A DNA stretch of 64,000 nt, taken from the NCBI GenBank assembly GCA_905182855.1, contig CAJJDA010000002.1, forward strand, positions 1 through 64,000, in the 5' to 3' direction. Both the position numbers and the translations under genes were made by a program. The notes below the pieces were generated by a model. That model did no database searches and had not been told where the DNA came from. It saw only the letters and a program-made list of their open reading frames with translations. Every line of letters starts with the position of its first letter. Positions within the stretch are counted from its first letter, which is position 1. This DNA is from a gamma proteobacterium HTCC2207. GTDB lineage: Bacteria > Pseudomonadota > Gammaproteobacteria > Pseudomonadales > Porticoccaceae. Positions 30,730 through 41,333 of this stretch are shown piece after piece.

Positions 30730-30825
30730 GAAGCGAGTGCCGATAGACAGTGGATTGAGGTAAAGCAGTTTAGCAGAGGATCACAGCGAACGGGAGAACT
30801 GGATGGTATAAACCACCGCCAGAAA

Positions 30826-30855
30826 TTAAAAGGGGACTGCCTTTAGGCAATCCCC
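30826..30855 (-). terminator. Rho-independent terminator upstream of pcnB
   Basis: On the minus strand GGGGATTGCC-TAAA-GGCAGTCCCC forms a ten-pair stem (one T-G wobble), followed by TTTTAATTT. The opposite strand has no T-run, so it works in the direction of cbrB and pcnB. It ends transcription that starts between cbrB and itself, or cbrB read-through, about 250 bases after the cbrB stop, and 97 bases before pcnB. Confidence 0.85.
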
Positions 30856-31068
30856 GAAAAGGACCTTCAAGATTTGAGTCCTAGGACTTAAACTATCCAA
30901 CCCTGTCGCAATCCATCCATTTTTTATTGTTTTTTATAGTTATTGTTACTCAAGACCTAGATCTTGGTATCCTTATTCTAATCAGAAATCATAGCGGCAC
31001 AAGAGAAACATGACGGGTTAGCGAACTATTTTGCAACCACACAGAATTGGATATCAAGTGTTACCTAT
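30856..31068 (-). ncRNA. Candidate CrcZ-like small RNA (Hfq/Crc sponge)
   Basis: The 374-base gap between the cbrB-like gene and pcnB has no ORF. In Pseudomonas this same gap encodes CrcZ, a CbrB-activated RNA that titrates Hfq/Crc by repeated AAnAAnAA motifs. Here the minus strand has two exact AACAATAA copies (30940-30947 and 30924-30931) in an A-rich tract, a perfect palindrome AGTCCTAGGACT (near 30877-30888) and then the strong terminator. Just upstream, TGGCCAGTTTTTTTGTTT (31070-31088) loosely resembles a -24/-12 site. The transcript limits are guesses. The gap could instead be just a cbrB 3' UTR. Confidence 0.4.
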
Positions 31069-31103
31069 TGAAACAAAAAAACTGGCCAATCCTGTTGCGG
31101 GGG

Positions 31104-32381
31104 CTATTTAGCGTTTTTGCGTGAGATTCCCAGCTTACTTCGGCGTTCCCAAAGTGATTTTCGGCTTATTCCCAACTGCTTCGCTAGAGCTGTTTCACTC
31201 ATATTTACCTGATTTTCCAATACAAAGCTGGTGAAGTAATCGGAAAGAGAACAGCCGACAGGGGCATTGATGACAGTCTCCATTTGAACGACACCAGCCG
31301 GGGTGATGTCCTGAGACTGATCTGGGACCTCTTCCAAACCAAGCACCTTGGGGTTAATAGGTTCGCCGGGTTCTGACAAAAGGCTGCCTCGGTAGAGCAT
31401 ATTTTGTAGTTCGCGAACATTGCCAGGCCAATGATAGGAAGCCATCGACTCGATTGCCTGCGCAGACAGTGTCACCTTATAGCCGAGTTCTCTTCCATAC
31501 TGCTCCAAAAAATAGTCGCTTAAATGAGCGATATCCATGACTCGCTCCTGCAGTGTGGGAACTTGGATATTGACCACATTAAGCCTGTAAAAGAGGTCTT
31601 TTCGAAATTGCCCGTTCTGACTGAGTGCCGTCAGGTCCTGAGAGGATGACGCAATCAGCCGATAACGGTTTTTATGCTGTATTGCCGCGAGCGCTAATTG
31701 CTGCAGATTGGCGTCCAATTCGCAAACATTAGCCAGAAATAAAGTGCCAATGTCTTCCGTTTTTAGACGGTTCAGGTATTCAATAAGCTGGCTTTCGTTG
31801 GTCGAGGCACAGTTGATGGTCAGAAAGGGTCGCTCTGCATTGACGCTTGCGTTGTGGACCGCCTGAGCAATAATACGCTTGCCTGTTCCGCCTGCGCCCT
31901 GAATCAATATGGCTGCACTGGAGGGCGCGGCTCTGTGGATGGTGCGCAAAATGGCCAAAATATCTGGACTGCTGCCCATGAGCAGCTTATTTTCTTCGAT
32001 AGCTAGATCGATTTCTTCGCTAGATTCGTTGATGACACGTTTAACTGAATTAAGTATTTCATCATAGTCAAAGGGCTTTGATATATAGTCCACAGCTCCC
32101 TGACGCATAGTCTCCACTGCAGATCTTAGGCTGGCATAACTGGTCATGATAATAACCGGAACGCAGCCGGCAGGATTTATCAGATCAGTGCCCGGACCAC
32201 CGGGCAATCTAAGATCGCTGATGATAAGATCAAAACTATTAAGATTAAATGATTCGCGAGCGGCTTTGACGCTAACAGCCTCAGAAATGCTGTAATGATG
32301 ACGCTCTAGCAATTTGCGCAGTGAAGAGCGGATAATATCTTCGTCTTCAACAATGAGTATGTTTTTTGAGTTAGACATCAT
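31104..32381 (-). CDS. cbrB: CbrB-like NtrC-family response regulator with degenerate AAA+ domain
   Basis: A 425-residue regulator in NtrC architecture: receiver (ILIVEDEDIIRSS; phosphoacceptor Asp in LIISDLRLPGG; K in YISKPFD), AAA+ domain (about 140-360) and Fis-type HTH (ALAKQLGISRKSLWERRSKL). Walker A GAGGTGK and the YHWPGNVRELQN sensor motif are kept. The GAFTGA loop that contacts sigma-54 is missing: about 20 residues between FLTINCAS and GTLFLANV are shorter, and Walker B DE is replaced by AN. It may not activate sigma-54 promoters. ATG 32381 overlaps the kinase stop as ATGA, so the pair is coupled. Name is by synteny and kinase type. Confidence 0.85.
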   Translation of the reverse strand: MMSNSKNILIVEDEDIIRSSLRKLLERHHYSISEAVSVKAARESFNLNSFDLIISDLRLPGGPGTDLINPAGCVPVIIMTSYASLRSAVETMRQGAVDYISKPFDYDEILNSVKRVINESSEEIDLAIEENKLLMGSSPDILAILRTIHRAAPSSAAILIQGAGGTGKRIIAQAVHNASVNAERPFLTINCASTNESQLIEYLNRLKTEDIGTLFLANVCELDANLQQLALAAIQHKNRYRLIASSSQDLTALSQNGQFRKDLFYRLNVVNIQVPTLQERVMDIAHLSDYFLEQYGRELGYKVTLSAQAIESMASYHWPGNVRELQNMLYRGSLLSEPGEPINPKVLGLEEVPDQSQDITPAGVVQMETVINAPVGCSLSDYFTSFVLENQVNMSETALAKQLGISRKSLWERRSKLGISRKNAK

Positions 32382-35269
32382 GTTGTCGATGATAAAGGAA
32401 AACAAAGTGTCACAGTAGTCCCGCAGTCACTATTTTCTGCAGGGCTCGCAATGGCGATCTCAGCACCCATTTTCTTGACTAAATTAAATACTATCCACAG
32501 TCCCAATCCGGTTCCCTGCCCAGGCTCTTTCGACGTCACAAAAGGTTCAAAGAGCCGGCCTGCAATATTTTCTTCGACACCAGTACCTGAATCGCTAATA
32601 GTGACGCGAATTTGGGTTGGCTCAGTAATAGCTTTTACCACTACTAGGCTGTTAGTGGGTGACGCATCGCGACCATTACTGAGCAGGTTAAGTAATATCT
32701 GAATCAGCTGGTGGTAGTCGCCAAAAATAATGACCTGTTCGTCTATATCGCAGATAAACTGGACTTGTGGTTTGCTGGTGCTCAGTTTCAGTAGCTGAAT
32801 CGCTTCGTTAGCGGCCTTGTACAGGCTGACTTTCTGCACTGAAGTCCCTGCCGATTGTCCGCCCCTTGAGAAATCAATCAGTGACTGGACAATCCGGTTA
32901 ATACGATCGGTTTGAAGCAATATATGTTTTACCGAGTCGGCAATTTGCTCGGGTTCAGTTTCATGTTGCAGATTTTGCGCAAGACAGGCAATGCCGGTTA
33001 CTGGATTGCCTATTTCGTGGGCAACGCCAGCCGCGAGACGACCGACAGATGCCAGTCTTTCATTGTCGATAGAGTTTTGCGTCAAAGCCACTGAGTCGGT
33101 TTGGTCTTCAATCAGCAGAATAATATCACTATTAGAGCCCTCGAGGGTTTGCTCCACGGACTTTTGCATACTGTACCAGCGGACATTACCCGCTAACTCT
33201 AGGCGCCTGTGGTCAACGGAATTCTCACCACTATCGAGAAATTCAGCGATAGCTGTGCGCCAGGGTTCAGCAAGGTCACTGATATAGCTGCCAGTCGCTG
33301 ATTCGATGTCAATACCTGTGTAGCTGGCGATACTAGAGTTCCATTTGAGAATTTCACCGCCCTGATCGATGGATATAATACCAATCGGGAGTTTATCCAA
33401 AATCTCGCGGTGGTGGACGCGTAATTTATTCAGTTCACTGGCGATCCCCGTCAGTCGATTGCCATGAATTGCCAGCACTGATTCTATCAGGTAGATATCA
33501 TCGGGCTCTTTATTGAGGCTAGGTGCCAGAGGCAGTGATTGCTCCATAACCCGTGTCGCGGCAAGAACGCCATAACGCAGATTTAAAGAGGCGTTAATAT
33601 TATCTCTAAGTTGGCGCAGGGCTGCCGGTCTAATCTCGGAACGCTTAAAACTGAGGCTTTCTAGTGCCGCAGTTACTTCATCTTCGGCGGCATCACCCAG
33701 TGTTAGACGCAGACTGTCCACAAGCTGCGACACAGATTTTTGCTTGATTTCAACGCGAGCAGGGATATATACGTTGTCGGCGAGACAGATCGCCGCGAAT
33801 GATCTCTGTTCAGCGTCGGTTCTTGCGTATCGGGAAAATATTACACAGAGCGTAAGATTTAAAAGCAGCGCCTGTAACGCCCAGAGACTCCAGTTTTGCA
33901 TACCAATAACCAGAGGGCGATCCAGCCAGTATATCTGCCACGTCCAGTCGCCGAATAATGCAGGTATGGCGATAGTCAGCAACCAGATAGCCATACCTCC
34001 CGAAAGCCCAGCGATAAAGCCCTGACGGTTGACCGTGGGTAAATACATCACCGCCAATAGGCCGGGTGTTAATTGTGCTAGTCCACTGAAGCCAACCAGG
34101 TACAGATCTGTGATGCTGCGACCTTTAATAATGAGGCTCAGCAGAGCGCACATTAGAAGCAGGCCAATCACAATGAGCATATGCTGTTGATTAATCCAAT
34201 TCGAGAGGTTTGCCTGCTGTCCCAAATTTTTGGTCGGTAATAAAACACTATTTAAGGCGACTCGCGCCACAGCAATGGTCAGGCTGCAGGTCAGTGCGAC
34301 GGACAGAAGAATAATACTGGCTGCCCCTAGACTCGCTATAAAGGGTTGATTAATCGCAGCCGGCAGTGCAAACAGGTACTCCTGTAATGGCGATGAGGAT
34401 TGCAGGGCAATACCACTCCAGAGCATCGGAAATACAGGAATACAGGCCAATAAAACCAGCAGCGGATATGCCCAGGCCGTCATGCTGGCTTGGCGGTCTG
34501 TGATATTTTCTGAAACTAAAATACTAAAATTAATTGGGAGAGCAAAGCTGGCAGTCAAAAAGACCGCAAATAGACTGTAGGACGATTCCATACGGTGCAC
34601 TATTAGCCGTTGCCCGCTCTCAACTACCCAGATGTTCATAGCGCCAACAGTGCCAAAAACTGCCTGAATGGAGGCCCATGCCGCAAGTCCTAATGCGGGT
34701 ATTATAAGTAAACCAGCGGCGGCCATAACTAAAAACACATGGCGCCCATTGGACCAAATAGAATGACGACTGAGGAGAACTACGGCAAAAACCAGCAGAG
34801 GGAGGCTGAAAAGGCTGTTATCAAAGATGAAGCTGGCCACGGATTTGATTGCCAGAAATTGGGCTAAAATGAGTGGGATAGCAATTAAAATTAGGCTAAT
34901 ACAGGCGGTTACGGCGACGGCTTTACCGCGGTACCTAAAGGTTAGGAAATCTACCACCGTGGCAAATCGAATAATCTGGCTGAGGCGCCGAATGGGAAAG
35001 AAAATTAGTGGTGAAAAGATAAAAATTAAGGTGAATCCTATCAGCGCTAAAATAATACTATAGCCATAACGACCCGCCATCTCGATAGTGGCCATGGCCG
35101 TTAAGACGCCACTCCCAGAAAAAAGAGCCAAGACTAAAATGAGTGGATTGCTCGGTGCCTGGCTACCTGGTGCTGCGCTGTTTGATTCGCCTGTTTTAGA
35201 TAGGAATTGGGTTACTAAGACCACAAGAGCCAGAATGCAGCCTGTTGTTATGGCGAGATTAGGAATCAT
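32378..35269 (-). CDS. cbrA: CbrA-like sensor kinase with N-terminal SLC5 transporter domain
   Basis: A sensor kinase of about 963 residues. The first about 500 residues form a sodium/solute symporter (SLC5-like) domain with around 13 helices, then a linker with STAC-type features, a PAS domain (ILDKLPIGIISIDQGGEILKWNSS), the H-box GVAHEIGNPVTGIACLAQ, N-box LLNLLSNGRDA and G-boxes SDSGTGVEEN and GTGLGLWIV. CbrA of Pseudomonas has this layout and controls carbon and nitrogen use. The track extends to a TTG at 35389; ATG 35269, inside the end of the small upstream ORF, has no ribosome site, consistent with translational coupling. Confidence 0.92.
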   Translation of the reverse strand: MIPNLAITTGCILALVVLVTQFLSKTGESNSAAPGSQAPSNPLILVLALFSGSGVLTAMATIEMAGRYGYSIILALIGFTLIFIFSPLIFFPIRRLSQIIRFATVVDFLTFRYRGKAVAVTACISLILIAIPLILAQFLAIKSVASFIFDNSLFSLPLLVFAVVLLSRHSIWSNGRHVFLVMAAAGLLIIPALGLAAWASIQAVFGTVGAMNIWVVESGQRLIVHRMESSYSLFAVFLTASFALPINFSILVSENITDRQASMTAWAYPLLVLLACIPVFPMLWSGIALQSSSPLQEYLFALPAAINQPFIASLGAASIILLSVALTCSLTIAVARVALNSVLLPTKNLGQQANLSNWINQQHMLIVIGLLLMCALLSLIIKGRSITDLYLVGFSGLAQLTPGLLAVMYLPTVNRQGFIAGLSGGMAIWLLTIAIPALFGDWTWQIYWLDRPLVIGMQNWSLWALQALLLNLTLCVIFSRYARTDAEQRSFAAICLADNVYIPARVEIKQKSVSQLVDSLRLTLGDAAEDEVTAALESLSFKRSEIRPAALRQLRDNINASLNLRYGVLAATRVMEQSLPLAPSLNKEPDDIYLIESVLAIHGNRLTGIASELNKLRVHHREILDKLPIGIISIDQGGEILKWNSSIASYTGIDIESATGSYISDLAEPWRTAIAEFLDSGENSVDHRRLELAGNVRWYSMQKSVEQTLEGSNSDIILLIEDQTDSVALTQNSIDNERLASVGRLAAGVAHEIGNPVTGIACLAQNLQHETEPEQIADSVKHILLQTDRINRIVQSLIDFSRGGQSAGTSVQKVSLYKAANEAIQLLKLSTSKPQVQFICDIDEQVIIFGDYHQLIQILLNLLSNGRDASPTNSLVVVKAITEPTQIRVTISDSGTGVEENIAGRLFEPFVTSKEPGQGTGLGLWIVFNLVKKMGAEIAIASPAENSDCGTTVTLCFPLSSTT

Positions 35270-40497: not shown

Positions 40498-41333
40498 GCA
40501 GCTTCAGTGGATTATAATAATTTGGCACCCGCCTCGGTGATCTGGATTATGATCTGTCTCGCACTATTTGTTTCCATAATAGGCTGGGTGCTCGGTTTAG
40601 GTGTAATCTAGCAAGCTAAAGTACAAGCGAACAAGATTACAGAATATGATTTTAAAAGCCGCTATTCGCAGGAAGATGCAGCGGCACCAGGCTTTGATAA
40701 AGGTTTAACTTATTTTGAGACTGTATTTGCTTTTGAAACTGATCCTTGACTTAGGGGGTTGGTAACGCTTACCGAAGCCGGAAATGTGAAAGCTGCAAAG
40801 TATCTTGGGTTCATTTACGCTAATGGTTACCGGGTTTTTCAAGATGCTGCTGAAGCAGAAAAGTGTCTAAAAATATTGGATAAACTTTCAGAGGAGGTTG
40901 CGGTGTGAGGGGCTAATATTGAGACTTACGATGAGGGCGATATTGCATATAGTGAAGGTGATCTTCTCACGGCTTTTAAGAGTTGGAAAACGCTAGCAGA
41001 CGATGGATATATTCGCGCGCATTTTTCTGTAGGTAAGATGCGTAACTAGGGTGAAGGTGCTTCGTAAGATTATACAGAGGGCGTCAAGTGGTATCGACTT
41101 GCGGTAAAGCAGGGACATGATAATGCGCAAATCGGCCTAGGAATGAGTTATCTGAAAGGTTGGGGCGTTCCGGTAGATCTGCGAATGGCCCATATGTGGC
41201 TCTGCTGGCTGCTGTTTCACACGGAAACAGCAAAGTTGGAAGTGATCTCGGTCCAACATTTAAAAATAAAGTAGCCACGCGGATGACACTTGAAGACCAG
41301 CAAAAATCCGGTGTCATGGCTAAGACGTGTTGA
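40498..41333 (+). pseudogene. Decayed Sel1-repeat (TPR-like) protein gene
   Basis: No ORF over 100 codons survives, but one frame reads as a Sel1-repeat protein: a membrane helix (MICLALFVSIIGWVLGLG), then AAKYLGFIYANGYRV, GDLLTAFKSWKTLADDG and WYRLAVKQGHDNAQIGLG. Five in-frame stops cut it: TAG 40609, TGA 40747, TGA 40906, TAG 41047, TAA 41065. After about 41190 homology changes frame (LAAVSHGNSKVGSD, VATRMTLEDQQKSG) and ends at TGA 41331. Three stop types and one frameshift argue for nonsense decay and against recoding. The left end is not defined. Confidence 0.8.

Follow-up and report, generated by a model that had tools for sequence, protein, structure and literature searches.

A CbrB ortholog without GAFTGA and a sigma-70-type promoter at the neighbouring crcZ-like RNA gene

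CbrB and other regulators without GAFTGA

CbrB is a regulator of carbon use; the Pseudomonas protein carries the motifs GESGTGKE and ADGGTLFLDE, activates sigma-54 promoters and binds spaced F, R1 and R2 subsites built on TGTTAC/GTAACA (PMC8871633). The small-RNA gene crcZ adjoins cbrB in Pseudomonas, and its sigma-54 promoter is activated by CbrB (PMC8871633, PMC6296734). Contrary to a 2022 review, which describes CbrAB as exclusive to Pseudomonas and Azotobacter (PMC8871633), we find CbrB orthologs and a CrcZ-like RNA well outside these two genera. The CbrB encoded in the window (the whole 64-kb stretch of DNA analysed here) shares with the Pseudomonas and Azotobacter proteins its gene order, CbrA partner, receiver domain (REC), helix-turn-helix (HTH), adjoining crcZ and GTAACA/TGTTAC half-sites, but it departs from the Pseudomonas protein in the loss of loops L1 and L2 and of Walker B, in a putative operator that forms a compact dyad, and in the sigma-70-type promoter of its neighbour. 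The window RNA likewise resembles CrcZ in its location between cbrB and pcnB, its A-rich Hfq-type motifs and its intrinsic terminator, whereas its length of ~130–165 nt, its sigma-70-type promoter and the absence of an Rfam family match set it apart.

Several GAFTGA-less regulators, including Rhodobacter capsulatus NtrC, VpsR and Caulobacter NtrC, act at sigma-70 promoters (PMC10274813). The same paper reports R. capsulatus NtrC, an NtrC-type response regulator from which GAFTGA is deleted, as an activator of sigma-70 RNA polymerase; unlike the window CbrB, it needs ATP binding and is not a CbrB ortholog, and no AAA+-free relatives of it are described there. VpsR of Vibrio cholerae, a GAFTGA-less bacterial enhancer-binding protein, works with sigma-70 without ATP, but differs from the window CbrB in being regulated by c-di-GMP and in its DNA sites and targets. 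An AlphaFold2 model of the window CbrB (mean pLDDT 70.8, built from three sequences and used here for fold matches only) has VpsR (7v2b) among its close matches and NtrX of Brucella (5m7p) as its best; NtrX is likewise a REC-AAA-HTH protein and differs in pathway and orthology.

The polymerases containing sigma-54 and sigma-70 open DNA differently, and regulators that cross from one to the other are known from scattered single cases only. We found no paper in the open-access literature on a GAFTGA-less CbrB or on a coupled promoter switch. What is new here is the loss of GAFTGA in CbrB together with an apparent promoter switch, and an unusually complete evolutionary series; GAFTGA-less activators were known singly. 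In more than 120 species the parts of the regulator can be followed alongside its promoter and operator, and at least three switches arose independently, one within a single genus, so that the evolution of sigma-factor dependence becomes directly testable with natural intermediates.

The window CbrB and its missing parts

The cbrB gene occupies 31104..32381 on the minus strand, with its first ATG at 32381 and its stop codon at 31104–31106, and encodes 425 residues; the plus strand over this interval is riddled with stop codons. The local gene order is dksA-gluQ-cbrA-cbrB-crcZ-pcnB-folK-panB, with cbrA, gluQ and dksA upstream of cbrB and pcnB, folK and panB downstream. The partner histidine kinase gene cbrA (32378..35269, minus strand, its start set at the ATG of MIPNLAIT) encodes HisKA, HATPase_c and PAS domains, and its product is 30–34% identical to CbrA at the same locus in relatives whose CbrB is intact. 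From this gene order, the CbrA kinase and a CbrB-type receiver and HTH, the latter aligning with the pattern SETxLAxxLGISRKSLWERR, we judge that the window protein is a true CbrB ortholog, in line with the earlier note, which had matched the neighbouring genes and the kinase to the CbrAB system. CbrB-like matches (E ≤ 1e-60) also occur in 64 of the 81 sampled genera of the order.

Pfam domains and alignment place the protein in the conserved REC/AAA/HTH frame despite the missing GAFTGA, with the Sigma54_activat domain split into two pieces and followed by an AAA lid. All of the following features lie on the minus strand. The receiver domain (PF00072, residues 8–113; 32043..32360) has an intact phospho-acceptor Asp in SDLRLPG and an intact Lys in KPFD. 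Walker A, GAGGTGK (31878..31898), and the AAA+ lid with WPGNVREL (PF25601; 31338..31547) are retained, as the earlier note had read them. Alignment with relatives also bears out its two principal losses: ~16 residues of L1, the loop with which CbrB drives the sigma-54 polymerase, including GAFTGA, are absent at 31770..31775, and the Asp-Glu pair of Walker B is replaced by Ala-Asn at 31728..31733, where the window protein reads TLFLANVCE and intact orthologs read TLFLDEIGE. Beyond these, ~12 residues of L2, the pre-sensor-1 insertion and second sigma-54-contacting loop, are missing at 31665..31670. The C-terminal Fis-type HTH (31131..31247; alignment, dN/dS and model helices) is the most constrained part of the protein, with dN/dS of ~0–0.08. 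A displaced GAFTGA was sought and rejected, as the alignment finds none elsewhere in the protein.

The loss is not peculiar to this copy. Among 50 genomes of the genus, all 41 CbrB orthologs found lack both GAFTGA and the Asp-Glu pair. A sequencing or assembly error in this single draft genome (1.64 Mb, 76% complete) is refuted as an explanation, since the identical loss occurs in 41 separate genomes. A remnant of the AAA+ domain is kept in 36 of the 41 orthologs, six of which have Arg in place of the Walker A Lys. In the other five (G006, G017, G018, G020 and G050) the AAA+ domain is deleted altogether, leaving open frames of 193–199 codons in which REC is joined to the CbrB HTH, and a tree of four neighbouring genes resolves these deletions into two separate events. 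CbrB is intact in G126, from a different genus of the same family, and in nearly all other relatives in the order. The aligned orthologs show that L1 with GAFTGA, L2 and Walker B had been lost by the genus ancestor, with REC, HTH and CbrA kept. Within the genus, dN/dS is 0.02–0.14 for REC and 0–0.08 for the HTH, values that show strong purifying selection on both, and 0.09–0.36 for the AAA remnant; for the AAA domain of intact sister pairs it is 0.04–0.10. The earlier proposal that the protein can probably neither hydrolyse ATP nor remodel sigma-54 thus gains support from the genus-wide loss of Walker B, L1 and L2, and further from the Lys-to-Arg changes and the two complete deletions of the domain.

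Loss of rpoN can be ruled out as the cause of the change in CbrB, as rpoN is present in the window genome, where the earlier note had suggested looking for it, and in all 30 near-complete genomes of the genus. Because three further activators of the window genome retain LDE and either GAFTGA or GSFTGA, the loss is specific to CbrB. Two genomes (G010 and G005; loci L059 and L060) have an orphan cbrB with no adjoining cbrA and a degenerate receiver, in which the acidic pair is gone together with the conserved Lys, KPFD reading AQPME or AQPVE, as if the receiver had decayed after loss of the kinase.

The crcZ-like RNA, its promoter and a putative operator

A previously unannotated crcZ-like RNA lies in the gap between cbrB and pcnB (30824..30974, minus strand). 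It comprises a 5' hairpin, an Hfq-type A-rich tract with several AAYAAYAA motifs, a GGATGGATTGCG block and a predicted terminator (30855–30832, minus strand). Across 22 species, 9 of 14 consensus pairs, including pairs of the 5' hairpin, show compensatory change. A covariance model scores 104.5 bits in the window genome and finds one copy in each of 37 of the 50 genus genomes, whereas Rfam gives no crcZ match in the window. The window genome has an hfq gene. A search for Crc as an EEP-family protein found none in that genome and no Crc-like protein across the genus, despite the presence of Hfq and the crcZ-like RNA; all seven of the EEP-family matches tested in the genus were exodeoxyribonuclease III. 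In five genomes (G008, G014, G052, G053 and G040; L229–L233) cbrA and cbrB are cleanly gone from between gluQ and pcnB, and the RNA is still in place with a sigma-70-like promoter. In nine others (G001, G036, G037, G044, G046, G047, G048, G054 and G060) cbrB is present, no crcZ-like RNA was detected genome-wide and the gap before pcnB is ~90–170 nt.

Loss of GAFTGA goes together with loss of the sigma-54 site. Searching the cbrB-pcnB gap for TGGC[AT][CT]-N6-TGC, which matches by chance at ~0.004 per gap in shuffled gaps, we found a site in 51 of 57 relatives with GAFTGA and in none of 68 without it. The GAFTGA-less group consists of the window genus (0/41 with a site), all 25 sampled members of family f44, and G100 and G190 of genus g9, whose sisters G030, G160, G191 and G192 retain both GAFTGA and a sigma-54 site at gap position 130–131. 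Among the six exceptions with GAFTGA, the site is missed by one base in G026, a contig end truncates the gap in G023, and pcnB was not found nearby in G031, G029 and G085, which leaves G028. The three GAFTGA-less lineages belong to three families, of which the window's and that of g9 each have intact members, and the CbrB tree needs three losses, two of them forced by strongly supported branches. A phylogenetic sign test is not significant because there are only three independent events. The comparison shows, from gap and protein sequences, that GAFTGA loss is paired with sigma-54 site loss in the window genus and in two further lineages.

A different promoter precedes the RNA in the window genus. 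On the minus strand, conserved column blocks mark a -35 element TTGTGC (30997..31002) and, after a 16-nt spacer, a -10 element TAGAAT (30975..30980), and covariation in the 5' hairpin supports an RNA start just downstream of the latter. The pattern TTGnnn-N16-TAnAAT occurs before the RNA in 24 of 32 genus gaps (0.46 expected), and most of the other gaps can be aligned to it with minor departures, for example GAGAAT. In f44, TTGCnA-N17-CAnnAT is found in 19 of 25 gaps (0.09 expected); neither pattern occurs in any of the 57 intact relatives. These patterns were chosen after the alignments had been seen, and the expectations therefore rule out chance matches without demonstrating function. In G100 and G190, a possible TTGCnG-N17-TTnACT, read by eye, is only suggestive of a sigma-70-type promoter. 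The conserved crcZ promoter is not listed by a generic sigma-70 scan, as TTGTGC fits the -35 consensus only weakly; our call rests on conservation across species and not on consensus strength. The gaps show that the -24/-12 promoter of crcZ, the classical CbrB target, was replaced in the genus by one of -35/-10 type. Regulator and promoter thus appear to have switched polymerase together, with a sigma-70-type promoter clear in two of the three GAFTGA-loss lineages.

Upstream of this promoter in the window, a compact dyad, TGTTTC-N5-GTAACA (31059..31075, minus strand), resembles the known CbrB subsites TGTTAC/GTAACA (PMC8871633) and is a putative CbrB operator, centred at about -100 from the estimated crcZ +1. 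This is its single exact match in the 64 kb; a match with one mismatch lies at 41213–41229, outside the listed ORFs of at least 100 aa. The dyad is a feature of the window's clade; 13 of 41 genus members and 1 of 57 intact relatives carry it. Its centre lies at about -90 in most carriers, at -100 in the window and at -80 in G002, and these shifts by one helical turn suggest contact on a single face of the helix. Relative to the sigma-54 start, TGTTAC stands near -144 and GTAACA near both -122 and -100 in many intact relatives, which fits the F-R1-R2 pattern of PMC8871633, and f44 retains a spaced F-R pair in 20 of 25 gaps. No operator could be named in the gap of the AAA-deleted species or of two other clades.

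Probable regulation through the housekeeping polymerase

We consider it likely, with good though not full confidence, that CbrB in this genus has ceased to be a sigma-54-dependent AAA+ activator and now exerts its control by way of the housekeeping polymerase of sigma-70 type, its target promoter having switched as well. The earlier note had foreseen a circuit working through sigma-70 or by repression, and such rewiring is supported by the sigma-70-type crcZ promoter of the genus and by the absence of sigma-54 sites in both further lineages with an independent loss of GAFTGA. In a possible mechanism, CbrA would phosphorylate the CbrB receiver, and CbrB would dimerize and bind the compact dyad upstream of crcZ. 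Held on a fixed helix face at about -80, -90 or -100, the dyad-bound regulator could recruit sigma-70 RNA polymerase in a class I-like manner, and the AAYAAYAA tract of the resulting CrcZ could then titrate Hfq. At most, the AAA+ remnant would serve as a nucleotide-binding or oligomerization scaffold, and it would be dispensable.

The tie between CbrB and crcZ is not obligatory, because nine genomes of the genus keep cbrAB without a detectable crcZ and five keep crcZ without cbrAB. These same genomes lend weight to the main rival, in which crcZ is transcribed constitutively from its sigma-70 promoter, independently of CbrB, and the degenerate CbrB serves other genes through sigma-70. The five species retain a sigma-70-like promoter after losing cbrAB, and in several clades no dyad was found at all. 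We regard this reading as possible but rather unlikely, as in the window's clade a dyad of known half-sites stands at a fixed, helix-phased distance from crcZ and has its sole exact 64-kb match there.

Other readings fare less well. CbrB could repress transcription or form a roadblock, which regulators of the TyrR type are able to do. Every known activation part is lost, and the GAFTGA-less NtrC of Caulobacter represses some promoters (PMC10274813). The putative operator, however, does not cover the promoter but stands upstream of it, between about -80 and -100, and with most carriers near -90 activation is therefore favoured; we hold repression to be improbable. It is very improbable that cbrB is a functionless pseudogene decaying toward loss. 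The complete loss of cbrAB in five genomes and the orphan genes with degenerate receivers in G005 and G010 would fit such a course, but reading frames are intact in all orthologs, REC and HTH are under strong purifying selection, and the AAA+ deletions are clean, in-frame and preserve both domains.

More broadly, and with moderate confidence, we propose that joint switches from sigma-54 to sigma-70 have happened repeatedly in a global two-component regulator and its promoter, and that extant species still show the sequence in which the steps came. First, GAFTGA would be lost and Walker B kept, as in f9 and part of f44. Second, L1, L2 and Walker B would all go, as in the window genus. Third, the AAA+ domain would be deleted, as happened twice, to leave a REC-HTH regulator. 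Finally, the two-component system itself would be lost and its target RNA left under sigma-70. In all 25 CbrBs sampled from f44 (L157–L181), GAFTGA is degenerate or absent; several have an L1 of unchanged length that reads, for example, DALPGADD, and part of them also lack the Walker B acids. Regulators of the PrrA/RegA/ActR type consist of a receiver and a Fis-type HTH, and the five AAA-deleted CbrBs share this domain layout. The likeness is convergent, because these proteins arose from CbrB by deletion of the AAA+ domain.
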